This document shows, piece after piece, positions 9,103 through 52,543 of a stretch of 54,589 nucleotides of DNA (within the stretch, counting starts at the first letter, position 1; every line of letters begins with the position of its first letter). This stretch comes from Acidobacteriaceae bacterium (GTDB lineage: Bacteria; Acidobacteriota; Terriglobia; Terriglobales; Acidobacteriaceae): the NCBI GenBank assembly GCA_030038195.1, contig JASHPJ010000133.1, forward strand, positions 1 through 54,589, given 5' to 3'. Position numbers and translations under genes: made by a program. The notes under the pieces are model-generated. The model was not told the DNA's origin. It was given only the letters and a program-made list of their open reading frames with translations, and did no database searches.

Positions 9103-10821
9103 ATGGCTAAACGCACTCGCAGAGATTTCCTGAGCGCCCTAGCTTTTCCGATCCTTTTTCCTCGGAACCTGATTCTAGGGGGAGCCCCGTTCTGGCCTAC
9201 GGTCAGAGGCGCAAGTAACGGTTCGCCCAGCATATTGTTCGAGGAGGTTCCTCCCGCCACATCGGGAATCGTATGGAGACATACAAGCGGCCGCTCGTGG
9301 GACGCTTACTTGCCCGAAACTACTGGCGCAGGTTGCGCTTTTCTCGATTACGACAATGACGGCTGGATGGATATTTACCTCGTGAATAGCGGGCGGTGTG
9401 ATTTCTTCGACCCGCATCCGCCTCTCCGCAATGCGCTCTATCGCAATAACCGCGATGGCACGTTCACCGACATCACTGAAAAAGCGGGAGTCGCCGCCGG
9501 CGGCTATGGAATGGGAGCTGCCGTCGGCGATTATAACGGAGATGGATTTCCGGATCTGTATGTATCACAGTACGGGCGAAGCATCCTGTACCGCAACAAC
9601 GGCGATGGCACGTTTACCGATGTGACCGAAAAAGCGGGGGTAGCGGCTCCCGGTTGGGCGTCAAGCGCGGTTTGGTTCGATTACGACAACGACGGCAAAC
9701 TCGACCTGTTCGTCTGCCGCTTTGTCGACTTTGACAAGTCGAAGAACAAATTTTGCGGCGACAAGCAGACAGGCCAGAACTACTATTGCGTTCCAATAGT
9801 CTATAACCCCATGCCAAGCTGGCTCTTCCATAACAACGGCGACGGAACTTTCACCGATGTTTCCAAAGAAACGGGCATCAGCCAGTCGTTGGGAAAAGCC
9901 TGGGGAGTAGTTGCAACCGACATCAATAACGACGGCTGGATGGATTTATTCGTGGCCAATGATACCGTGGCCGACTTTTTGTTCCTTAATCAAAATGGCA
10001 AGTTCGAAGACATCGGTCTAATGGCAGATGTGGCCTTTAGTCAGGAAGGCCTTCCCAGGTCGAGCATGGGAGTCGACTCCGTTGACTACGATCAAGACGG
10101 CTGGCAGGATCTATTTGTCACGAACGTCGATCAGCAGATGTACTCGCTGTATCGGAACAATCACGATCTCACGTTCGACGACATGGCGGTTCCTCTCGGG
10201 ATTGGCCGTATCACGCGCCTCATGAGCGGCTGGGGCATCAAATTCTTCGACTACGATAATGACGGAAATGTCGATTTGTTTCTTGCAAACGGCCATCCCG
10301 ACGATCAGATTGAAAAATTCTCGCCGAATGTCACGTACGAAGAGCCGTTCATTCTGCTGCACAACAACGGGCATGGTTTTGACGACGTGAGTTCTGGCGC
10401 CGGGCCAGCTTTCGCGAAGCGGTTTGCATCGCGTGGCATGGCGATAGGAGATTTCAACAATGACGGTGCTGTTGACGTGCTCGTCAATGTGAACAATGGA
10501 GCCCCGGTTTTGCTAAAGAATGTAGCCGCGCACGGCAATCATTGGCTAGGTGTTCGACTGATCGGCAAGACCTGCAATCCCGATGCGATCGGAGCACGCA
10601 TTACCTGGCAAGCCGGCGACTTGAAGCGAAGCCGGTTCAAAACGGGTGGAGGCAGCTATCTTTCTTCGCACGATCCTCGCGAAGTCCTGGGACTGGGTGA
10701 ACATGCGAAGATCGACAAACTGGAAATTCGTTGGCCGCGGCCGAGCGAGCGAGTCGATGTCTTTACGGACCTCGCTGTGGATCGCTATGTCACAGTCGTG
10801 GAGAGCGTCGGGCTGAAATAA
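9103..10821 (+). CDS. Exported FG-GAP/VCBS repeat protein with ASPIC/UnbV domain (CRTAC1 family)
   Basis: About 572 residues; ATG at 9103 chosen over the preceding GTG. The N-terminus has a Tat-like signal ([13 protein letters not shown]). Several FG-GAP/VCBS blades follow, each with a calcium-loop pattern such as [48 protein letters not shown] and [12 protein letters not shown]. The last ~90 residues form an ASPIC/UnbV module ([38 protein letters not shown]). These proteins fold as calcium-binding beta-propellers and occur with TonB receptors and TPR proteins in Acidobacteriota. The biochemical role is unknown. Confidence 0.9.
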
Positions 10822-10822
10822 A

Positions 10823-10943
10823 CATTCGTTACTCACTCCGGGTCGGTTGTCTCTTGGGTGCGGCCGCGTTTGCGCAAGCGCCGGCAAATTTGGCCCCCAA
10901 CCCTGAATTCAGCGTCGATGAGCTTGGCGAGCCATTGTCCTGA
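10823..10943 (+). pseudogene. N-terminal stub of a secreted protein, upstream of the IS element
   Basis: Just after the FG-GAP gene one frame reads YSLRVGCLLGAAAFAQAPAN followed by LAPNPEFSVDELGEP and a stop at 10941-10943. It looks like a signal peptide with an AQA cleavage site and the first residues of a carbohydrate-binding type domain. No ATG fits, and the frame ends about 60 bases before the IS3-family element. It was probably the next gene of the same operon, broken before or by the insertion. Confidence 0.4.
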
Positions 10944-11069
10944 CAATTCTGGTCATCGCGTCCTGACTCGGAACTGCGACGCGCAGTGCTGAACACCGAC
11001 GGCGTGACCTGCCCCGCCTGGATCCGTCCGATTCGGAATACGATTTGGACGAAGGAAAGGGGAAGGAAG

Positions 11070-11345
11070 ATGAGCAAGAGCCGGCACACGGAGGCGCAGA
11101 TTATTGCTGCGCTGCAGCAGGTTGAAGCGGGCCGGACGGCGGAAGATGTGTCCCGGGAACAGGGTGTGAGCGAGCACATGATCTATGCCTGGAAGGCGAA
11201 GTACGGTGGCATGGAAGTGAGTGAGGCCGAGGAGGTCAAGCACCTGCGCGACGAGAACGCGCGGCTGAAGAAGCTGGTGGCCGAGCTAAGCCTGGATAAG
11301 GACATGCTGCAGTCGGTGATTCGCAAAAACTCCCTGGGCTCGTAG
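11070..11345 (+). CDS. IS3-family transposase OrfA
   Basis: 91 residues with a strong ribosome-binding site (GGAAGGAAG) and ATG at 11070. It has the IS3 OrfA helix-turn-helix: SRHTEAQIIAALQQVEAG, then SREQGVSEHMIYAWKAKYGG, then the leucine-rich KHLRDENARLKKLVAELSLD typical of the dimerisation zipper. Length and ending (VIRKNSLGS) are normal for the IS407/IS51-like groups, so the gene looks intact. It recognises the IS ends but needs OrfB for catalysis, and OrfB is truncated here. Confidence 0.9.
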   Translation: MSKSRHTEAQIIAALQQVEAGRTAEDVSREQGVSEHMIYAWKAKYGGMEVSEAEEVKHLRDENARLKKLVAELSLDKDMLQSVIRKNSLGS

Positions 11346-11735: not shown

Positions 11736-12038
11736 AGAGATGTCGCGTACGACAACGCAGTTGGAGTGTGGTACGCCGTATTCAATATGAATTGGAGGTC
11801 TCCATCGACCACAGGCAATGTCACAGAGAGGGATCAACCCGGCGTGATCGTCTATACAATTCCGGCTGCATCGTTGCTAATGGGATCGACGCCTTGGCAA
11901 CAAGCCTTCACTGTGGATATAAATCTAACAGGATACGAAGGTAACTTCCTGCCAGCAATTCTTCGCGACCCCTACGGAAATATTAACATCAGGGGTAGCC
12001 CAGACCAAGCCAAGGCGGCAGCTCAGCACATACATTGA
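11736..12038 (+). pseudogene. Unrecognised gene fragment downstream of the IS element
   Basis: An open frame without a proper start reads DVAYDNAVGVWYAVFNMNW, then PGVIVYTIPAASLLMG and ends NIRGSPDQAKAAAQHIH. It begins right after the IS right end, so it may be the tail of the gene into which the element inserted. I recognise no domain. The left-hand stub at 10823-10943 need not belong to the same gene. Confidence 0.35.
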
Positions 12039-44576: not shown

Positions 44577-45146
44577 ATGATTCGGGTCAAGATGATTCGG
44601 GTCAAGGCCGATTTCCCCATGGCGCATCTGTGGATTCAGGACGCAGGCAGTTGGGCCGCGAAGAAGCTCTTCGCGGAGCGGATCGACCTTGCGTCGCTGG
44701 CCACGGGCGGCGGCGAGCCCGTTCCGCCGGCCCCGCCTGGCGAGAGCCAGGTGCTCCTCGTCCGGGCCGATGTCGCCGGCGCGCAGGTGTGGGCGCTGGT
44801 TGCCGCAGAGACGTCGGGGGCGCGCGTGAATGGCGAAGAGCCGGCGGGCGGTTTGCGGGTGCTTGCGGATCGCGATGCCATGCGCACCGCCGACGGCAGG
44901 TTGTGCTTTTTCTCCACCGAGACCCTCGCGACGGTGGAGTTGTTTCAGGGCGCGGGCCGGCCGGTGTTTTGCGGGCGCTGCCGGCAGCAGATCGAGCCGG
45001 GCACCGGGGCTGTGCGCTGCCCAGGTTGCGGCGTCTGGTACAACCAGGGCCCCGAGCTGCCCTGCTGGACATACGCGGAGACCTGCGCGTTCTGCGGAAA
45101 CCCGACCGCGCTCGACTCCGGCTTCCGATGGGTTCCCGAGGAGTGA
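44577..45146 (+). CDS. RING-like treble-clef protein, candidate E3 of the tagging operon
   Basis: 189 residues; ATG at 44577 with GGAGGG upstream. The DNA start is a small tandem duplication, giving MIRVKMIRVK. Residues 1-125 are an unrecognised beta-rich domain. The C-terminal 60 residues carry cysteines at 132, 135, 148, 151, 163, 170 and 173 in the order FCGRC, RCPGCGVWYN, ELPCW, TCAFCG. This is the layout of prokaryotic RING fingers (CxxC...CPxCG..(Y)H..CW...C..C), except that the usual His after the Tyr is Asn and a four-residue insertion precedes CW. RING proteins in bacterial E1/E2/JAB operons have been proposed as E3 ligases (Burroughs, Iyer and Aravind). It starts the nine-gene operon, five bases before the E1 gene. 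Confidence 0.7.
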   Translation: MIRVKMIRVKADFPMAHLWIQDAGSWAAKKLFAERIDLASLATGGGEPVPPAPPGESQVLLVRADVAGAQVWALVAAETSGARVNGEEPAGGLRVLADRDAMRTADGRLCFFSTETLATVELFQGAGRPVFCGRCRQQIEPGTGAVRCPGCGVWYNQGPELPCWTYAETCAFCGNPTALDSGFRWVPEE

Positions 45147-45151
45147 ACGGG

Positions 45152-46204
45152 ATGAATGCGCTTCACATCGTCGTGGCCGGAGCCGGGGGCAACACCGGCT
45201 CGCACCTGTTGCCGCACCTGGCGCGGATGAGCGAAGTGGCGCGCCTGACGGTGGTCGATCCGGATGTGTACGAGGCCGAGAACGTGCGCGTGCAGAACAT
45301 CGATGCGCCGGACGTGGGCCAGGCAAAGGTTCTTGCGCAGGCGGCGCGGCTACGGCGCATCCGGCCTGAGCTTGAAGTGACGGCGCGGCGGGAGCGCATC
45401 GAGGATGTTCCGCGCGGGCTGCTCCGCTGCCACCTGTTCGTGAGCTGTCTCGACAGCAGGATGGCGCGACAGCATCTGAACGAGATTGCGTGGAGGCTCG
45501 ATACGCCGTGGATCGACTGCGGCGTGCTGGGCAGCCAGAGCCTGGTCCGCGTGAGCGCCTACACGCCGTCCGGCGATTCTCCGTGTCTGGAATGCTCGTG
45601 GAGTGCGGGTAGGAACGGCGACTACTCGCTGCTCGAGCAGGAGTATCTCTGCGGCGCCGTGCATGGGATGGGGTCGCCGACCCTGTCCTCTGCGGCGCTG
45701 GGCGCGCTCGCAGCCTCGCTGGTGGCCATCGAGGTGGCGAAGTTCGCGCGCGGGGACCTTGCGGAATGGAGCGCCTCGCGGCAGTTGATTTTCGACGCCG
45801 GGCACCGCGTGGCGCAGGTCACGGCCGAGCGCAGAAACCCGTGGTGCCGCTTCGATCACCGCGCCTGGAGCTTGGAGCCGTGGGTCGCGCCTCCCGCCAC
45901 CACGACTGTCAAGGAAACGCTCCGCGCGCTGGGCTCAATGCAGGTGGCCGGCCACCATTTTGTGAGCGAGATGGTGTGCCCCGGCTGCGGACGGCGCGAC
46001 AAGGCGCCGCGGCTCAACCGTCCGCTGGCGCGCTGCGCCGCTTGCAACCGGCGCATGGCGTCTTCAGGCTTCGGCGCTCTCGAACGGCTTGAGCCGCGCT
46101 GCGCCGGCGAGTTCATGCGCTTGACGCTGGCCCAGGTGGGGCTGCGCGCGGGCGACATCCTTACCAGTGGGGCCCGGCATCGCCTGCTCGTGGAGGCCCA
46201 ATGA
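45152..46204 (+). CDS. E1-like ubiquitin-activating enzyme (ThiF fold) with zinc ribbon
   Basis: 350 residues. The Rossmann ATP-binding loop is GAGGNTGS (10-17), followed by VVDPDVYEAENVRVQN (Asp36, Arg46) and CLDS (Asp100), all standard for ThiF/E1 adenylation. Cys145/148 (SPCLECSW) and Cys167 (YLCGAVHG) are candidate zinc and thioester cysteines; GSPTLSSAALGALAASLVA forms the dimer helix. The C-terminal 80 residues hold a zinc ribbon, CPGCGRRD (276-279) and CAACNRR (295-298), instead of a classical ubiquitin-fold domain. It would adenylate the C-terminus of the ubiquitin-like protein at 47621 and hand it to the E2. Its stop overlaps the E2 start (ATGA). Confidence 0.9.
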   Translation: MNALHIVVAGAGGNTGSHLLPHLARMSEVARLTVVDPDVYEAENVRVQNIDAPDVGQAKVLAQAARLRRIRPELEVTARRERIEDVPRGLLRCHLFVSCLDSRMARQHLNEIAWRLDTPWIDCGVLGSQSLVRVSAYTPSGDSPCLECSWSAGRNGDYSLLEQEYLCGAVHGMGSPTLSSAALGALAASLVAIEVAKFARGDLAEWSASRQLIFDAGHRVAQVTAERRNPWCRFDHRAWSLEPWVAPPATTTVKETLRALGSMQVAGHHFVSEMVCPGCGRRDKAPRLNRPLARCAACNRRMASSGFGALERLEPRCAGEFMRLTLAQVGLRAGDILTSGARHRLLVEAQ

Positions 46205-46731
46205 GCGCAAACGGGAACTTCGACGATCCGGTCTATCGCCGTTTCATGGAACGGCAGCTTGAAGAAGGCAGGGCGCTCGAGCATTCGAGCGATCTCGTCC
46301 GGCTGCATGTTCCCTCCCTCGCGCCGCCGCATGTTGTGGCCGAGTTCCGCTGCAAAGGGCTGGTGCGCGAAGGCGAAGGAGAGATCAGGGAGGCCGGCGA
46401 ATTTCATGTGGGGATCTGGTTTCCGCCCGACTACCTGCGGCGCGCCGATCCGTTCGAGATGCTGCGTCTCTTCACACCGCATGTGTGGCATCCCAACGTG
46501 AGCCGCGAGCTGCCGCTTATCTGCATTGGAAGGCTCGCACCCGGCACGCCCCTGGTCGATATTCTCTACCAGCTCTTCGACATCCTCACCTACCAGAAGT
46601 ACAACCCGCGCGAGAACGACGCGCTCAATAAGCCAGCGTGCGCGTGGGCCCGCGCCCACCAGGATCGATTCCCTGTCGACCGCCGTCCGCTCAAGCGCCG
46701 GCCGCTTTGCCTGGAGGCGCAACCGCTATGA
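46201..46731 (+). CDS. E2-like ubiquitin-conjugating enzyme
   Basis: 176 residues, the normal size of an E2 core. After an N-terminal helix (YRRFMERQLEEGRALEHSSD) come the beta-strands (PHVVAEFRCKGLV, GEFHVGIWFPPDYL). The active site has HPN at 97-99 and the candidate catalytic Cys108 in LICIGRL, nine residues after the Asn, almost the eukaryotic UBC spacing. The following helices read TPLVDILYQLFDILTYQKYN and NKPACAWARAH. Keeping HPN makes this more eukaryote-like than many bacterial E2s. It overlaps both neighbours by four bases. Confidence 0.85.
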   Translation: MSANGNFDDPVYRRFMERQLEEGRALEHSSDLVRLHVPSLAPPHVVAEFRCKGLVREGEGEIREAGEFHVGIWFPPDYLRRADPFEMLRLFTPHVWHPNVSRELPLICIGRLAPGTPLVDILYQLFDILTYQKYNPRENDALNKPACAWARAHQDRFPVDRRPLKRRPLCLEAQPL

Positions 46732-47618
46732 AGCCTGCAAACCATGCCGCTGAGGTTGCCCTGGCCATGCTCGACCGGTGCTGCGACGAGGTTGAGCCGG
46801 TCAGGCCGTGGAGCTGGCAATGCGCATTCCAGAACGGGACGCGCCTGCCGTTATCGGCGTCGTACGCAGACGGCTTTCTCCGTCTTGCCGCCGGCCCCGC
46901 AATGGCGCCGGTGACTGCTTCTGCGCTCGATCGCGCGATCAGGTGGAACGCCGCGCTCACGGGCGGCATAAAGATTGCGATCGATGCGGCCCGGCGCGCC
47001 TTCGCGCTGTGCGCGGACCTCGTTGTGCTGGATGAAGCGCAGTTGCTGGCGCGGCTCCGGTGGGCGCTCGATGGATTCCATGACGGCTTGAGCGCGTTCG
47101 CAACCGATGACAGCCTGGATGCGGCGATTCCCTCGCGGCCGGCGCCCGCTCCTGCATCGGAGCTGCCCGAGCTGCTCGGCGCAACGCCGTGGGAATTCGC
47201 TGAACGCGACGCCGGCGCGTGTTCGGTGGCTCTCGATGCCGAATCCGCACCGCCGGCAAGAGTGTGGATGGATGCGGACGGTATCTCGCTCAGCGTTGAG
47301 CTGGCGCGAGCGAGCGCCGTTTCTGCTGCGCAACTGCGCGCGCTCGGCCTGTTCCTGCTGACGGTCACCGGCGCCCTGCGCCTAGTACGCGCCGGCGCAG
47401 TCGAATCGGACGGGCAAACGGTCTTCACGCTCGCGGCGCGACTGCCCCAGGCTCCCGCGCCGGAGGAGCTGGACCATGCGCTGGCGTCGCTTTCCGTTGC
47501 CTACCGCCTGTGCGCGCGCGAGTCGTGCGTGCTGCTGGACGAAGCGGCGGCTGCTTGTTACCTGGCCGTTCGCAGGCAACCAATGACCTGTCAATCACTC
47601 GACAGAAAGGAGAACTGA
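46728..47618 (+). CDS. YbjN/secretion-chaperone-like protein of the tagging operon
   Basis: 296 residues, start at the ATGA overlap with the E2 stop. Two related halves can be seen. The first has RLPLSASYADGFLRLA, ASALDRAIRWNAALTGGIKI and LDEAQLLARLRWALDGFHDG, which fits the YbjN/type III secretion-chaperone fold. The second has CSVALDAESAPPARVWMDAD, then AAQLRALGLFLLTVTGALRL and EELDHALASLSVAYRLC. There are no catalytic motifs. A chaperone or substrate-adaptor role for the conjugation machinery is an inference from fold and place. Confidence 0.55.
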   Translation: MKPANHAAEVALAMLDRCCDEVEPVRPWSWQCAFQNGTRLPLSASYADGFLRLAAGPAMAPVTASALDRAIRWNAALTGGIKIAIDAARRAFALCADLVVLDEAQLLARLRWALDGFHDGLSAFATDDSLDAAIPSRPAPAPASELPELLGATPWEFAERDAGACSVALDAESAPPARVWMDADGISLSVELARASAVSAAQLRALGLFLLTVTGALRLVRAGAVESDGQTVFTLAARLPQAPAPEELDHALASLSVAYRLCARESCVLLDEAAAACYLAVRRQPMTCQSLDRKEN

Positions 47619-47620
47619 AT

Positions 47621-47914
47621 ATGGGAAAGGCTGAATCAGCAACCGGGATCGCACTGGAAGTCAGCGACGTATCCGGCCAGAAGGTATTTTCCGTGTCCAA
47701 TGCGCCGGCTGTAAATACCGTCGGCGAGCTCATTCACGAGATGCTCGGCAAGATGAACCTGCCGCGGAACGACTCGGGCGGGGCTCCGCTGATCTACCAA
47801 GCCAGGCTCGAGCGGGAGGGGCGTCATCTTCACGCGTCGGAGCGCATCGGCGATGCGCTCGAGAGCCACGACCGGCTGACATTGCAGCCCAACATCGACG
47901 CGGGCCTGGCGTGA
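47621..47914 (+). CDS. YukD-like ubiquitin-like protein, candidate E1/E2 substrate
   Basis: 97 residues, ATG two bases after the previous stop, with AAAGGAGA upstream. It has the beta-grasp order: strand IALEVSDVSGQKVFSVSN, helix TVGELIHEMLGKMNLPRN, strand LIYQARLEREGRHLH, turn ASERIGDALESHDRL, last strand TLQPN. The C-terminus is IDAGLA, so a Gly lies two residues from the end. Removal of Leu-Ala would expose it for E1 adenylation, as in many pro-ubiquitins. The genes for E1, E2 and a JAMM protease flank it, which makes it the most likely modifier of that half of the operon. Confidence 0.78.
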   Translation: MGKAESATGIALEVSDVSGQKVFSVSNAPAVNTVGELIHEMLGKMNLPRNDSGGAPLIYQARLEREGRHLHASERIGDALESHDRLTLQPNIDAGLA

Positions 47915-47941
47915 AACCAGGCTGCGCCGCAGGAACAGGCC

Positions 47942-48976
47942 ATGACGCTGACTTTTCCATACCGCTTTGCGATCGCCTTGTTCGGTGAGGATGGGACTGA
48001 GCTGGGAACGATTGCCGTGAAGCGCGATTGGGAGCCGGCGGCCGAGTGGACGCGCCTCCGCTTTCAGCGCCGGGGAGAGCTGGCCCTGGATGCAAACGGG
48101 AGCGCGTCCGTCCTTCCGCTCTGGGAAGAGTTGCTGGGCGAGCCTTATTGCTGTGGCTATCGTGTGCAGATTACGCAGCCCGGCGGCCAGGCGGTGGCTT
48201 CAGATTTTCCCATTACCGACTTTCGCGACTTCGCCAACGCGACGGCTTCAGCTTTCGTGGAACAAAAGCGATTGCGCGAGGGCGAGGTGTACACCTACAT
48301 GGTGGTTGCCCACCCCACGGCGCCCGAAGCGCCAGATGCAGGCGGGCTTCAGGTCACGAATGCTTCGCCGCGCATTCCGGCCGGCGATGCATCGCTCGAT
48401 AGCTTCCTCGTACGGGCTACGCCGCATGGCGCACCCGATGTGCTCGATATACCGGTGTTTGTGTCCTCCCAGGTGCTGGAAGAAGCCGCGGCGCAGACGC
48501 GCGCATGCCAGGGAACCGAGACCGGTGGCGTTCTGATCGGCTCGCTGTGGCGCGACCGGACCGCGGGCGAGATATTTGCCGAAGTCAAGGCGCAGATCCC
48601 CGCCGAGCACGCCGCCGGCACAAAGGTAAGGCTGACGTTCACGCCTACCACCTGGACCGCGGCCGAAGCGGCGCTGCGGCTGCGGGGACGCGGCGAGATC
48701 TACCTCGGCTACTGGCACTCCCACCCGGTGAGGGAGTGGTGCAAGACGAGAACCTGCACACTCGAGGCGCAAAAAGTCTGCCGCTTTGCAAAAGATTTCT
48801 TCTCTGCCGACGACGAGGCGGTGATGCGCGCTGCCTTCCCGCGCGCTTACTGCGTGGCCATTGTGGCCAACGACACCGCCTTCACCGATCTGACCTTCAG
48901 CATGTTCGGAAATCACCAGGGCATGATACGGCCGCGGGGTTTCTACATTCTCGAGGAGCAACGAAATGTCGCGTAA
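47942..48976 (+). CDS. JAMM/JAB-domain deubiquitinase-like protease with N-terminal extension
   Basis: 344 residues. Residues 1-165 form an unrecognised beta-rich domain (PYRFAIALFGEDGTELGTIA, EELLGEPYCCGYRVQI). The MPN/JAB domain starts near 170: VFVSSQVLEEAA, TETGGVLIG (Glu193), then YLGYWHSHP (His259, His261) and FFSADDEAV (Ser288, Asp291). All JAMM zinc ligands and the catalytic Glu are present. The gap between HSHP and the SxxD motif is long (27 residues instead of about 10) and holds three cysteines (267, 272, 280). It would mature the ubiquitin-like protein and/or remove it from targets. Confidence 0.9.
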   Translation: MTLTFPYRFAIALFGEDGTELGTIAVKRDWEPAAEWTRLRFQRRGELALDANGSASVLPLWEELLGEPYCCGYRVQITQPGGQAVASDFPITDFRDFANATASAFVEQKRLREGEVYTYMVVAHPTAPEAPDAGGLQVTNASPRIPAGDASLDSFLVRATPHGAPDVLDIPVFVSSQVLEEAAAQTRACQGTETGGVLIGSLWRDRTAGEIFAEVKAQIPAEHAAGTKVRLTFTPTTWTAAEAALRLRGRGEIYLGYWHSHPVREWCKTRTCTLEAQKVCRFAKDFFSADDEAVMRAAFPRAYCVAIVANDTAFTDLTFSMFGNHQGMIRPRGFYILEEQRNVA

Positions 48977-50660
48977 ACCAGCGGAACAGGCATGCGCGCC
49001 GGTCGCGGCGCTGGTCGAGCTTTTATGGGATGGCGACCCTTTCCAGTCGCTGGAAGATCGCCTGGCGGGACTCCAGCATCTGCGCGAGGGCGGCGTTGAC
49101 GGCGCTGCCATCGACGCTTACCTGCTCGAACGGCTGCTCTATCTGAATACCGCGCTGAACACGGTGCACGAGGAGCAGGACAGGCTGCGCTCGCTGGTCG
49201 GGAGCCTGACCGCGCCGCCCTACTTTCCGGCGGTATTTCTGGCAGCAGCCGACACCGGCGTGGTGCACGGGGCGATTGTGCAGACAGAAAACGATCGCAG
49301 GGTTGTGCAACTGGGCGAAGACGTCAACCTCAGCCAGCTTGCGCCCGGCGACGAGGTCCTGCTGACCCACGAGCGCAACTGCCTCATCGCCCGGTCGGAG
49401 ACGCCGAGCTTCATGACCGGCGAAGTGGCCAGCTACAGCCGCACCATCGGCGACGGCCGGATTGTGGTCCGGTCCCGCGACGAGGAGTTTGTGGCGCTGC
49501 CCAAAGCGGCGCTGCGCAGCGTGCTCTTGAAGGCCGGCGACGGCATCCGCTTCAACCGCACCACCGGGCTGGCCTTCGAAAAGATCGAGGCTTCAAAAGG
49601 CGACGAATACTTCATCGAATCGACGCCCCTGGATTCGTTTCACGAGATTGGCGGCCTCGATCGCGAGATCGAAGAGCTGAAGCGGCTGATGACGCTGCAT
49701 CTCTTCCATGCTGGCGCGGCTGCCAGGTACCGGGTTCCGCGCCGGAAGTCGGCCCTGCTGGAAGGGCCGCCGGGCAACGGGAAAACAAAAGTGGCGCGGG
49801 CTGCGTGCAACTGGCTTGCAACCCTGTCGCCCTCGGGACACTCGCGCTTCATCAACGTGAAGCCGGGCAGCCTGAACAGCATGTGGTACGGGGCGACGGA
49901 ACAGCGCTATCGCGAGATCTTCCGCGTTGCGCGGGAGGCTGCCGACGCCGAGCCGAATGTGCCCGTAGTGATGTTCTGGGACGAGGTGGACGCGATCGGC
50001 GGGCATCGCGGCGAGTCGGTGCACCGCATCGACGATCGCATGCTGAATGCCTTCATGGCGGAGCTGAACGGCCTTGAGGATCGCGGCAACATCCTCATCC
50101 TGGCCGCGACCAACCGCCTGGACTCGATCGATCCCGCACTACTGAGGCCCGGCAGGCTTGGCGACCTGATCCTGCATTTCCCGCGGCCGAAGGCAAAGGC
50201 GGCGCGCGCAATCCTGGGGCGTTACCTGCCGGCGGACATTCCCTACGCGACCGGCGGCGAGAGTGCCGCAAGGGCGCGGGAGCTGCTGCTCGACCAGGCC
50301 GTGGCGCAGCTCTTTGCCGAGTCCGGCGATACCGAGCTGGCAAAGCTCACCCTGCGCGACGGCAAACATCGCCTGGTGCGCGCGGCCGACCTGGTGAGCG
50401 GCGCGCACCTGGAGGCGATTGCGCAGTCGGCCGCCGAGCGAGCCTGTATACGCGAGACAGAAGGTGGACCGGCTGGCGTGAGCGCCGCAGATGTGCGCGC
50501 GGCCATCGCCGAGTTCTGCCGGTCGGCGCCGAGAGCGCTCACGCCTCGTAACGCGCGCAGCTACCTGCGCGACCTGCCCCAGGACGTGGACGTGGTCCGC
50601 GTGGATCTTGTCGAGCGAAAGGTGCAGCAGCCCTATCGCTACCGGGTGGAGGCGGCCTGA
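48966..50660 (+). CDS. ARC/Mpa-type proteasomal AAA ATPase
   Basis: 564 residues; ATG inside the end of the JAMM gene, with GAGGAG upstream. A short coiled-coil lies about 52-82 (LLYLNTALNTVHEEQDRLRS). Two OB-like modules follow (about 85-145 and 148-208), as in ARC/Mpa: GAIVQTENDRRVVQLGEDVN, LAPGDEVLLTHERNCLI, GDGRIVVRSRDEEFVALPKA. The AAA domain has Walker A GPPGNGKT (267-274), pore loop MWYGATE, Walker B VVMFWDEVDA (Asp339, Glu340), sensor ATNR and LRPGRLGD. It ends RYRVEAA, without the GQYL/HbYX-type tail that docks on a 20S proteasome. It would unfold tagged proteins. Confidence 0.9.
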   Translation: MSRKPAEQACAPVAALVELLWDGDPFQSLEDRLAGLQHLREGGVDGAAIDAYLLERLLYLNTALNTVHEEQDRLRSLVGSLTAPPYFPAVFLAAADTGVVHGAIVQTENDRRVVQLGEDVNLSQLAPGDEVLLTHERNCLIARSETPSFMTGEVASYSRTIGDGRIVVRSRDEEFVALPKAALRSVLLKAGDGIRFNRTTGLAFEKIEASKGDEYFIESTPLDSFHEIGGLDREIEELKRLMTLHLFHAGAAARYRVPRRKSALLEGPPGNGKTKVARAACNWLATLSPSGHSRFINVKPGSLNSMWYGATEQRYREIFRVAREAADAEPNVPVVMFWDEVDAIGGHRGESVHRIDDRMLNAFMAELNGLEDRGNILILAATNRLDSIDPALLRPGRLGDLILHFPRPKAKAARAILGRYLPADIPYATGGESAARARELLLDQAVAQLFAESGDTELAKLTLRDGKHRLVRAADLVSGAHLEAIAQSAAERACIRETEGGPAGVSAADVRAAIAEFCRSAPRALTPRNARSYLRDLPQDVDVVRVDLVERKVQQPYRYRVEAA

Positions 50661-50661
50661 C

Positions 50662-52362
50662 GTGAGCACGCACGCACGCAAGAATCCCGCCGGGTGGGCT
50701 CTGCCCAAGCTGTGCGGCGCCGACATCGAGCTCGGTAACTTCATACTCGGCGTTCAGCAGCCCGGAGGAACCGGATACGAGGCCTCGCGGGAGCTGCTCG
50801 CTGAGATTGCGGGTTACCCGGAGGGCCATGGAGGCTGTCTGCGCGATCTGTGGTCGTCAGCATACGCGGCCGCTCATGCCGGAAGCCGGCTGCGCGCAGG
50901 CATCTTTCCAGGCTTCGGGCTGAGCGACCTCGGCGCGCAGGACGTCGGCCGCCGCTTTCTCTCCTCCCAGGGCGGCAGCGCGTATATTGACCTCAATCAT
51001 CTTGAGCTGTGCATTCCAGAGGTGATCAGTGCATTCGATCACGTCGCCAGTTGGCACGCCATGTTGCGCATCGCCAGAGGCGCCCTGGAGCGCGCCAACC
51101 TGAAAAGGGATGCACATCGTCGCATCCAGGTGCTTGTGAATAATTCAGACGGCCTGGGCCGTTCCTCCTACGGAAGCCACCTGAATTTTCTCGTCAGCCG
51201 GCGCACATTCGACCAGATTTTCTCAAGGAAGGCGCATTACCTGCAGTTTCTGGCGTCGTTCCTCGTCTCCGGAATTGTTCTTACCGGCCAGGGAAAGGTG
51301 GGAGCGGAGAATGACCGGCCTGGAATCGCGTACCAGATCAGCCAGCGCGCTGATTTCTTCGAAGTCCTTCAGGGAATCCAGACCACCTTCAACCGGCCCA
51401 TCGTCAACTCCCGGGATGAGTCGCTGTGCGTCGCGCAAGAGAACTGCGACCCGTGCGATCCGGCCCGGCTGCACGTCATCTTCTTTGATAGCGCGCTGGC
51501 GCATGGCTCGGCTCTGCTGCGCGTGGGGCCCATGCAACTGATCCTGACGCTGATGGAGCTCGAGCGGGTGAATGCGCGCCTCATTCTCGATGATCCGCTG
51601 GCCGCGGTGTGCGCCTATAGCCGCGATCCGGGGCTCAGGGCGCGCGCCCGTCTCATCGGCGGCGAGCGCATGACGGCGGTCGAGCTGCAGAGCGCCTATC
51701 TCGAAGAGGCGCGGCGCTATGCCGTGCGCGGGGTGTTTGAGGGGCTCGTTCCCCGCGCTGAAGAGATCCTTGCTCTGTGGGAAGACACGCTGGTCAAGAT
51801 GGCGAAGGGCGATCTGACGGCTCTTGTTCCGCGCCTTGACTGGGTGATGAAACTGGCGGCGATTGAGAGAGCGATGGAGCAGCGCCGCGGACTTGGCTGG
51901 CAATCGGCTGAGACAAAAATGATCGATCACCTGTACTCCAGCCTGGGCGGCGATGGCCTGTACTGGGCTTACGAGGCCAGTGGCGTGGCCGAGCGGCTGG
52001 TGACGGACGCCGAGATTGAGCGCTTCACCGTCGATCCTCCGGCCGAGACGCGCGCATGGACCAGGGCCATGTTGCTGCGGAGAGCCTGCCGCGACGGCAT
52101 CGATGTGGACAGCGTGGATTGGGACCGGATGACCTTCAGGATGCGCGGCCAGCACGGATGGCCTGTCTATCGCACCATCGAAATGCGCGATCCGCTGGGA
52201 TTGACGCGGAGCGACGCCCAGGCCCTCTTTGAAAGCATCGACAACTTCAATGACCTGCTCGATGGTCTGGACAAGCTCTCGAGCGGGCGCACGCGGCACA
52301 CGGCGGCGCGCGCGGCAGAGGAACGAAAAGGAGACAGACATGCAATTTCTTCGGCGTCTTGA
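50662..52362 (+). CDS. Dop/PafA-family Pup ligase or depupylase
   Basis: 566 residues from a GTG one base after the ATPase stop. The glutamine-synthetase-like fold signatures are all present: GADIELGN (Asp21, Glu23) for GxExEyG, AYIDLNHLELCIPEV (Asp110, His113, Glu115, Glu120) for the YxDxxHPEyxTPE motif, NNSDGLGRSSYGSHLNFL, YQISQRADFFEV, TTFNRPIVNSRDES and LRVGPMQLILTLME. The C-terminal domain also aligns: LVPRLDWVMKLAAIERAMEQ, GLYWAYEASG, VDPPAETRAW. The Asp that serves as nucleophile/base in PafA and Dop (Asp110) is kept. Only one paralogue is in the window, so ligase versus deamidase/depupylase cannot be decided. It overlaps the Pup-like gene by 23 bases. Confidence 0.92.
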   Translation: MSTHARKNPAGWALPKLCGADIELGNFILGVQQPGGTGYEASRELLAEIAGYPEGHGGCLRDLWSSAYAAAHAGSRLRAGIFPGFGLSDLGAQDVGRRFLSSQGGSAYIDLNHLELCIPEVISAFDHVASWHAMLRIARGALERANLKRDAHRRIQVLVNNSDGLGRSSYGSHLNFLVSRRTFDQIFSRKAHYLQFLASFLVSGIVLTGQGKVGAENDRPGIAYQISQRADFFEVLQGIQTTFNRPIVNSRDESLCVAQENCDPCDPARLHVIFFDSALAHGSALLRVGPMQLILTLMELERVNARLILDDPLAAVCAYSRDPGLRARARLIGGERMTAVELQSAYLEEARRYAVRGVFEGLVPRAEEILALWEDTLVKMAKGDLTALVPRLDWVMKLAAIERAMEQRRGLGWQSAETKMIDHLYSSLGGDGLYWAYEASGVAERLVTDAEIERFTVDPPAETRAWTRAMLLRRACRDGIDVDSVDWDRMTFRMRGQHGWPVYRTIEMRDPLGLTRSDAQALFESIDNFNDLLDGLDKLSSGRTRHTAARAAEERKGDRHAISSAS

Positions 52363-52543
52363 TGACGAACAGCAACGGCAGCCCGGCGCGGACGGCGGCG
52401 CGGATTCCCAGGGAACACTGGAGCAGGAGCGCGCGGAAGGCGATCGCATGCTCGCCGTCGGAGATGAGGCGATTCGCAGGGCGCTGGCGGGCGGCAATTC
52501 GGAGGCATTTCTGCGTTCCGCCATGCAGCAAGGCGGCGAATAG
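52340..52543 (+). CDS. pup: Pup-like (UBact-like) prokaryotic ubiquitin-like protein ending in GGE
   Basis: 67 residues, ATG within the end of the Dop/PafA-like gene, with AAAAGGAGA upstream. Like Pup (about 64 residues) it is polar and disordered in its first half (QQRQPGADGGADSQGTLEQE), has a helical second half (DEAIRRALAGGNSEAFLRSA) and ends MQQGGE. The GGE terminus is ready for ligation without the deamidation that GGQ forms need. It contains no lysine at all, so poly-pupylation of Pup by itself is impossible. Gram-negative Pup homologues have been reported under the name UBact. It is the last gene of the operon. Confidence 0.88.
   Translation: MQFLRRLDDEQQRQPGADGGADSQGTLEQERAEGDRMLAVGDEAIRRALAGGNSEAFLRSAMQQGGE

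Follow-up and report, generated by a model that had tools for sequence, protein, structure and literature searches.

Can a single bacterial operon serve both ubiquitin-type and Pup-type protein tagging, two convergent inventions that are usually treated as alternatives? The question is raised by nine plus-strand genes that lie as one row at positions 44577-52543 of a 54,589-nucleotide stretch of Acidobacteriaceae DNA (contig JASHPJ010000133.1; hereafter the window), and that form a conserved operon holding both kinds of gene. Six genes of a ubiquitin-type half, encoding RING-like, E1, E2, g4, ubiquitin-like (Ubl) and JAMM proteins, are followed by three of a Pup half, encoding an ARC-type ATPase, a Dop-type enzyme and a Pup-like tag. 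Judged from its sequence, we consider it evenly balanced whether the two covalent tags, ubiquitin-type and Pup-type, converge on one unfoldase that would act in the absence of a proteasome.

The row opens with a RING-like zinc protein of 189 amino acids (44577-45146; Prok-RING_1, 6e-4, below cut-off), followed by an E1-type adenylating enzyme (45152-46204, 350 amino acids; ThiF, 2e-27) and an E2-type conjugating enzyme with an HPN motif and Cys108 (46201-46731, 176 amino acids; UQ_con, 0.0014, below cut-off). The gene g4 (46728-47618, 296 amino acids) encodes a tandem CesT/YbjN-fold protein, according to its fold model, and a predicted chaperone or adaptor; the Ubl tag (47621-47914, 97 amino acids) was assigned a beta-grasp fold by model and fold search and has the tail ...DAG-LA. 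The JAMM metalloprotease (47942-48976, 344 amino acids; Prok-JAB, 2e-7, above cut-off), predicted to carry out Ubl maturation and deconjugation, is followed by the ARC/Mpa-type AAA ring ATPase (48966-50660, 564 amino acids; AAA, 5e-27; pup_AAA, 2e-81), the Dop-type enzyme of the Pup ligase/depupylase family (50662-52362, 566 amino acids, GTG start; Pup_ligase, 3e-83) and the Pup-like tag g9 (52340-52543, 67 amino acids), which is lysine-free, ends QQGGE and was recognised with a family profile. From the first gene to the last, the junctions measure 5, -4, -4, 2, 27, -11, 1 and -23 bases. No Pfam match was obtained for g4, Ubl or the Pup-like protein when each window protein was scanned singly, and their identities come from family-level tests with profiles and models. 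A scan of the operon for promoter-like sites (two, both on the minus strand, versus 0.7 expected) and terminator-like sites (six versus 6.1 expected) gave no evidence either way on its transcription.

A scan of genome contigs with the Dop alignment yielded 13 loci, and wherever the DNA suffices the shared gene order is RING, E1, E2, g4, Ubl, JAMM, ARC, Dop, Pup. This order was found in Acidobacteriaceae, Chloracidobacterium, one unclassified bacterium and Hydrogenedentota (L008, with only a weak Pup candidate), and partial rows were found on contigs labelled Deltaproteobacteria, Armatimonadetes and Phycisphaerae, with the proviso that the taxon labels of metagenome assemblies may be wrong. The operon is not due to chance, because the same order occurs in other phyla, and its recurrence in independent genomes and phyla rules out a contig or assembly accident. 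The combined gene set is spread over at least three phyla, and probably five.

An unbiased sample of 788 genomes (396 Acidobacteriota and 392 Planctomycetota) was searched with the E2 profile. Matches were obtained in 11 of the 396 Acidobacteriota, four of them strong (E up to 6e-74), and in 30 of the 392 Planctomycetota, three of them strong (E up to 4e-47); all three strong Planctomycetota loci hold a complete ten-gene row, and the Pup half is present in every strong-E2 genome of the sample (7/7). The Pup_ligase (PF03136) search covered the Acidobacteriota sample and matched 10 of the 396 genomes, including all four with a strong E2 and none of the seven with a weak one; among the other six (G016, G019, G070, G236, G381 and G399), only G236 has an operon-type ARC-Dop-Pup-paralogue row. 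Viewed from the Pup side, this Dop type occurs in 21 genomes, and in 18 of them E1 or E2 is strongly matched. In one of these genomes, G272, E1 lies on a separate contig, and no RING gene was found upstream of E2, the stretch searched for it. The E2 match of G445 (6e-25) comes from a contig of 4.6 kb on which no other gene was recognised. More distant E2 loci were inspected in five of the 27 weak-match Planctomycetota genomes and in all seven weak-match Acidobacteriota, and none of these 12 fetched stretches contains a Dop, Pup or PafA match; L044 has a weak ARC-profile match (3e-18). Six of the 12 (L040, L041, L044, L046, L055 and L057) hold Ubl, E1 and JAMM together with the distant E2 and, by their gene content, appear to be a sister, ubiquitin-only kind of locus. 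The sporadic occurrence of the combined operon (4/396 and 3/392) suggests that it has moved between lineages by transfer.

Where the two halves meet, the JAMM-ARC junction measures at most 30 bases, overlaps counted, in 10 of 14 fetched loci as well as in the window, and the overlap of the two genes argues against separate transcription of the halves. Distance matrices of the six ubiquitin-half and four Pup-half proteins were correlated in all 24 comparisons (r 0.54-0.86, with 11-15 genomes per comparison), and the observed r was reached by 0-7 of 5000 shuffles. The alignments also reveal that active-site residues are retained in both halves.

In the ubiquitin-type half, Cys145, Cys148, Cys167, Cys276, Cys279, Cys295 and Cys298 of E1 are kept in 14/14 aligned sequences, with Cys167 the likely thioester cysteine, and E2 keeps His97, Pro98 and Cys108 in 15/15 and Asn99 in 14/15. 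A search of the PDB with the E2 family profile matched the eukaryotic E2 2pwq (1.2e-4). The ligand order of the RING-like protein is of C4HC3 type, with Cys148, Cys151, Cys163, Cys170 and Cys173 present in 12/12 sequences and Cys132 and Cys135 also seen in the alignment. Glu193, His259, His261, Ser288 and Asp291 of JAMM are kept in 13/13, the pieces L012, L037 and L038 having been left out of residue counts and distances. The AlphaFold model of the Ubl is a beta-grasp fold (pLDDT 84.6), for which Foldseek returned 101 matches with E <= 1e-3; SUMO, ubiquitin and NEDD8 are among the closest solved folds, and the first 50 matches include Caldiarchaeum ubiquitin (6fno, 6fnn). The g4 model contains two CesT/YbjN-type domains according to the predicted structure and fold search. 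Sequence profiles of Ubl and g4 matched nothing convincing in the PDB. Ala94-Gly95 of the Ubl is present in 16/16 sequences (the L003 Ubl, which runs into N, was left out of Ubl counts, distances and alignments) and is followed by no residue in six and by 1-7 residues in ten, a pattern that would fit a modifier precursor trimmed to a C-terminal Gly, as in ubiquitin precursors. Among the marks of a ubiquitin-type operon, the E1, the E2 with HPN and Cys, the JAMM site and the beta-grasp Ubl were found; Gly-Gly on the mature tag and a RING E3 over the curated cut-off were not.

In the Pup half, pup_AAA is the top-scoring of the 14 NCBIfam models listed for ARC, which keeps the Walker A Lys and Thr and the Walker B Asp in 17/17 sequences and the Walker B Glu in 16/17 (Asp in L008). 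The Dop-type enzyme scores 280.6 bits against Pfam PF03136 (Pup_ligase; cut-off 25), its best NCBIfam match is the Dop model (5e-74) with the PafA model second (2e-55), and Asp21, Glu23 and the catalytic Asp110 are present in 15/15 aligned sequences; the L009 Dop, broken by N, was left out of Dop counts, tree and distances. At E <= 10 the Pup-like family profile matched only two sequences in the PDB, both of them Pup (E 0.31 and 0.34). The Pfam Pup model in turn matched 11 of the 23 family members at E <= 10 (best 0.0029), the window protein being unmatched, and a search of the window's genome (G000) with Pfam Pup PF05639 gave no match. C-termini of the 23 family members are GG[EQ] in 20 and SGE in three, and all 14 Pups recognised in the loci end in G[EQ], two of them as SGE.

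The window operon itself has no ligase gene, and a PafA-type candidate of the same genome lies on another contig (G000:C80:7396-9537). Its motif, GAETEYA, is an intact GxExE, which the alignment shows to be kept by the second Pup_ligase-family paralogues. In 16 loci with a recognised Pup and DNA beyond it, the window included, the second Pup_ligase-family gene directly follows Pup in 11, is inverted beside Pup in two (L009, L011), lies one gene further in one (L036) and is not nearby in two (the window and L001). At the genome level, a second member was found in 19 of the 21 genomes with this Dop type, with a fragment in G013 and none in G012. In a tree of 34 proteins with only three canonical references, the 15 operon Dop-type proteins and the canonical Dop of L049 make up one side (support 100/97), and the two canonical PafA sequences fall on the other side, together with a clade (100/100) of 16 second paralogues; the nearest kin of the C80 copy are those of L009 and L011 (100/98). 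We provisionally assign ligase function to the second paralogue because of this tree position and the intact GxExE motif. Catalytic-motif spacing was tried as a Dop/PafA marker and rejected: it is 86-115 (one 209) in Dop-type proteins and 53-58 in second paralogues, but 80 in the canonical PafA of L049, so that the separation is not clean. The C80 gene is flanked by the gene of a protein whose end resembles SLATT_1 (just below cut-off) and by that of a sigma-54 activator (L018:5414-7138 and 9690-11315), neighbours that may hint at a conflict or stress setting for the relocated PafA-type gene.

No 20S beta match over the cut-off was obtained in any of the 21 genomes with this Dop type, the control genome G019 being positive. 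In G000, the PF00227 match that could have been a hidden 20S is HslV, adjoining HslU; of 13 other genomes searched, 11 matched and the strong matches are likewise HslV, while four weak proteasome-family matches (L030, L032, L033 and L034) did not match HslV. The penultimate Tyr of the proteasome-docking tail in the control ARC, which ends RYL, is absent from 17/17 operon ARCs. The control comes from an Acidobacteriota locus (L049, G019:C11) with the canonical order ARC-Dop-Pup-PrcB-PrcA-PafA and no ubiquitin-half matches, in which PrcB and PrcA were named from reading frames and are supported by the 20S beta match. Compared with this locus, the right half of the operon is, in its predicted gene content, a canonical Pup locus minus the proteasome genes.

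These results bear on a preliminary description of the window that had been made from its letters alone. All nine plus-strand genes were found at the place and strand it gave, and the recomputed junctions agree with its gaps of 1-27 bases and its overlaps (ATGA at 46201 and 46728, 11 bases at 48966 and 23 bases at 52340). Its E1, E2, RING-like, JAMM, ARC/Mpa-type and Dop/PafA identities are backed by Pfam or NCBIfam matches, although E2, RING, ARC and Dop stay under some cut-offs, and its Pup-like identity by the family profile, which matches Pup alone in the PDB, weakly, and by Pfam Pup in 11/23 members. The predicted fold of g4 bears out the term YbjN-like. A YukD-like Ubl found no specific support, since SUMO, ubiquitin and NEDD8 dominate the first 50 fold matches, among which ESX-5 chains (7np7, 7npt) are also present; we take these chains to contain a YukD-type domain.

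Starting from the observed genes, their order, their residues and their phyletic pattern, the chemistry that the protein families predict would run as follows. JAMM would trim the Ubl precursor to ...Ala-Gly, a step suggested by the Ubl tails and the intact JAMM site; E1 would adenylate the Ubl and hand it over by thioester to Cys108 of E2, and the RING-like protein would aid its transfer onto lysine, as the conserved residues of these proteins indicate. The PafA-type enzyme, whose gene lies elsewhere in the window's genome and next to Pup in most relatives, would ligate the Pup-like tag through its C-terminal Glu; conversion of GGQ to GGE and removal of the tag would fall to the Dop-type enzyme. 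The ARC ring would then pull on tagged proteins or complexes, most likely remodelling rather than degrading them, because no 20S core and no docking tail were found; such remodelling is reported for the ARC of Corynebacterium glutamicum (PMC12288473). Rpn11 strips ubiquitin at the eukaryotic proteasome, and JAMM, gene-coupled to ARC, may strip Ubl at the ring in the same manner. The convergence of both tags on ARC is the least certain step; it is suggested by the JAMM-ARC gene coupling, by the strict co-occurrence of the halves and by the fact that the row has just one unfoldase of Mpa/ARC type. Taken as a whole, the proposal that one co-inherited gene set writes, erases and reads both a thioester-transferred ubiquitin-type tag and a glutamate-ligated Pup tag, JAMM and Dop being the two erasers, and that both tags converge on one unfoldase independent of a proteasome, is a tentative one, to which we give somewhat less than an even chance.

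Several observations weigh against two tags feeding one unfoldase. Scores are low for the RING-like protein (Prok-RING_1, 20.1 bits versus a cut-off of 29.1), for E2 (the UQ_con match given above), for ARC (pup_AAA, 274.6 bits versus an equivalog cut-off of 504.75) and for the Dop-type enzyme (249.8 bits versus 492.3), all below cut-off. Position 156 of the RING-like protein is His in 10/12 sequences and Asn in two (the window and L003), the Ubl ends in Ala-Gly, not Gly-Gly, in 16/16, and the Dop-type motif is GxDxE instead of GxExE, with Asp21 for the first Glu, in 15/15. The Pup of L008 is a weak, diverged candidate (about 11880-12010, E 0.19) that ends GAQ, not G[EQ]. Seven second paralogues were scanned with NCBIfam, and four, including that of the window's genome, favour the Dop model and three the PafA model; the C80 paralogue scores 246 bits for Dop versus 232 for PafA, both below cut-off. 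Three genomes (G004, G010 and G236) have the Pup half and yielded no E1 of this type. Their contigs begin at or near ARC/JAMM; that of G004 retains the end of the JAMM gene, and in G236 the bases directly before ARC are a repeat with no JAMM end. The E1 match of G272 holds one TGA. Correlated divergence of the halves could also be expected from shared species history alone, and that ARC handles Ubl-tagged proteins is something we infer.

The preliminary description had treated the row as a single system, a view it would have dropped if homologous loci never co-occurred outside this contig. They do co-occur, across phyla, and at the gene level the claim stands, as RING-E1-E2-g4-Ubl-JAMM-ARC-Dop-Pup(-PafA) recurs and the halves diverge in step; a shared unfoldase, or cross-regulation, we can still only infer. 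The halves could instead be two parallel pathways that share transcription only and act on different targets in the same stress, with ARC serving Pup alone. We consider this rather unlikely, even though each half looks catalytically complete by itself, the 12 distant-E2 loci have no Dop, Pup or PafA match (six of them with Ubl, E1, JAMM and E2) and a canonical Pup locus without ubiquitin-half matches exists in the same phylum (L049): the gene coupled to ARC is JAMM, which is no mere accessory, 7/7 sampled strong-E2 genomes carry both halves, and the hybrid-operon Dop forms its own clade.

It seems improbable that one tag regulates the other, for instance through pupylation of the Ubl at Lys21 or through Lys21 Ubl chains that recruit the Pup machinery, and the lysines on which this possibility turns can be read in two ways. 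All but one of the 16 Ubls keep Lys21, which is the sole lysine in two (L007, L052) and starts the second strand of the Ubl model, a place that by topology presumably matches ubiquitin Lys11; the Ubl of L008 is entirely lysine-free, however, and a lysine may also be conserved for folding or for the Ubl surface. The Pup-like tag, for its part, is lysine-poor (K/(K+R) 0.06 versus 0.14-0.23 in the other eight products) and lysine is absent from 18 of 37 Pups, but this low content may be compositional. Quite improbable, in our view, is a Pup half that is no tagging route, in which the Dop-type enzyme, with its GxDxE, would be a hydrolase that has diverged and the Pup-like protein would thread into ARC as a non-covalent handle. 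The Asp that replaces the first Glu in all 15 Dop-type proteins would fit such a role, yet the catalytic Asp110 is kept in every one of them. Likewise, the missing ligase gene of the window operon and the second paralogue not found in G012 are set against the PafA-type paralogue with intact GxExE in the window's genome and the second family member in 19/21 genomes, and the GAQ end of the L008 candidate against a G[EQ] end in 23/23 family members and 14/14 locus Pups.

Other genes were noted around these loci. An optional extra AAA ATPase of about 400 residues adjoins Pup/PafA in seven loci (L003:13292-14659, L004:5426-6640, L005:13736-14911, L008:13865-15097, L010:3973-5175, L035:15463-16680 and L036:10001-11338); the four copies scanned first have an end of AAA_lid_9 type. 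Two other Acidobacteriota genomes (L047, L048) each encode just one large protein of the Pup_ligase family, and neither ARC nor Pup was matched within the 17 kb fetched. Upstream of the L003 operon, the protein encoded at L003:2068-3624 contains a TIR_2-like stretch (below cut-off). A known defence system was considered for the window and rejected: PADLOC of 2023 (Bil, CBASS and others) found no full set, with partial matches only for E1, JAMM and ARC and the other six proteins unmatched.

Each half of the operon is of a known kind, and the combination appears to be the new part. The actinobacterial-type pupylation locus (Mpa/ARC, Dop, Pup, PrcB, PrcA, PafA; represented here by L049) has the same four families in the order ARC-Dop-Pup-...-PafA, its Pup ends in G[EQ], and the Dop-type enzyme groups with the L049 Dop (100/97); the operon differs from it in that no PrcBA was found, ARC has no docking tail, Dop has GxDxE, Pup is lysine-poor and six genes stand in front. 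UBact proteins are reportedly Pup homologues of Gram-negative bacteria, Pup-like tags with a G[EQ] end outside Actinobacteria, and are said to be accompanied by proteasome genes. Pupylation also operates without a proteasome in Corynebacterium glutamicum, where ARC takes apart pupylated bacterioferritin (PMC12288473); this system shares ARC, Pup, PafA and Dop without a 20S, and differs in that a ubiquitin-type half goes unmentioned in the available portion of that source. On the ubiquitin side, E1-E2-RING-Ubl-JAB operons of Actinobacteria, Planctomycetes and Acidobacteria are in print (PMC4197634, citing Burroughs 2011), with the same ubiquitin-type gene set and two shared phyla. The operon of Caldiarchaeum subterraneum likewise encodes E1, E2 and RING proteins; its ubiquitin is made as a precursor that runs on past the mature C-terminus, and a JAMM/Rpn11 homologue trims this pro-ubiquitin (PMC5654768). 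In the accessible part of that paper Pup, Dop and PafA are unmentioned, and its mature tail is Gly-Gly versus Ala-Gly here. We found no earlier description of the combined halves in the literature, although Burroughs 2011 may mention them: the combination is unmentioned in the accessible parts of a 2008 survey of Pup outside Actinobacteria (PMC2588565) and of a 2025 review (PMC12288473), and was not seen in those of PMC1779556, PMC3511204, PMC4197634, PMC5654768 and PMC11354881; the accessible part of PMC7203096 gave no match.

The operon poses testable questions, namely whether one ring ATPase reads two tags and why two chemistries are kept, and it raises that of a bacterial module of JAMM and ring ATPase, comparable to the lid and base of the eukaryotic 26S proteasome, assembled without a 20S core. 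It also offers a compact set of parts for reconstitution (E1, E2, RING, Ubl, JAMM, PafA, Dop and ARC), and suggests that antiphage defence is not the only use bacteria make of ubiquitin-type operons. If the reading in which both tags feed ARC is true, the operon would amount to a naturally occurring merger of the two tagging worlds, ubiquitin and Pup, in one bacterial protein-control machine.

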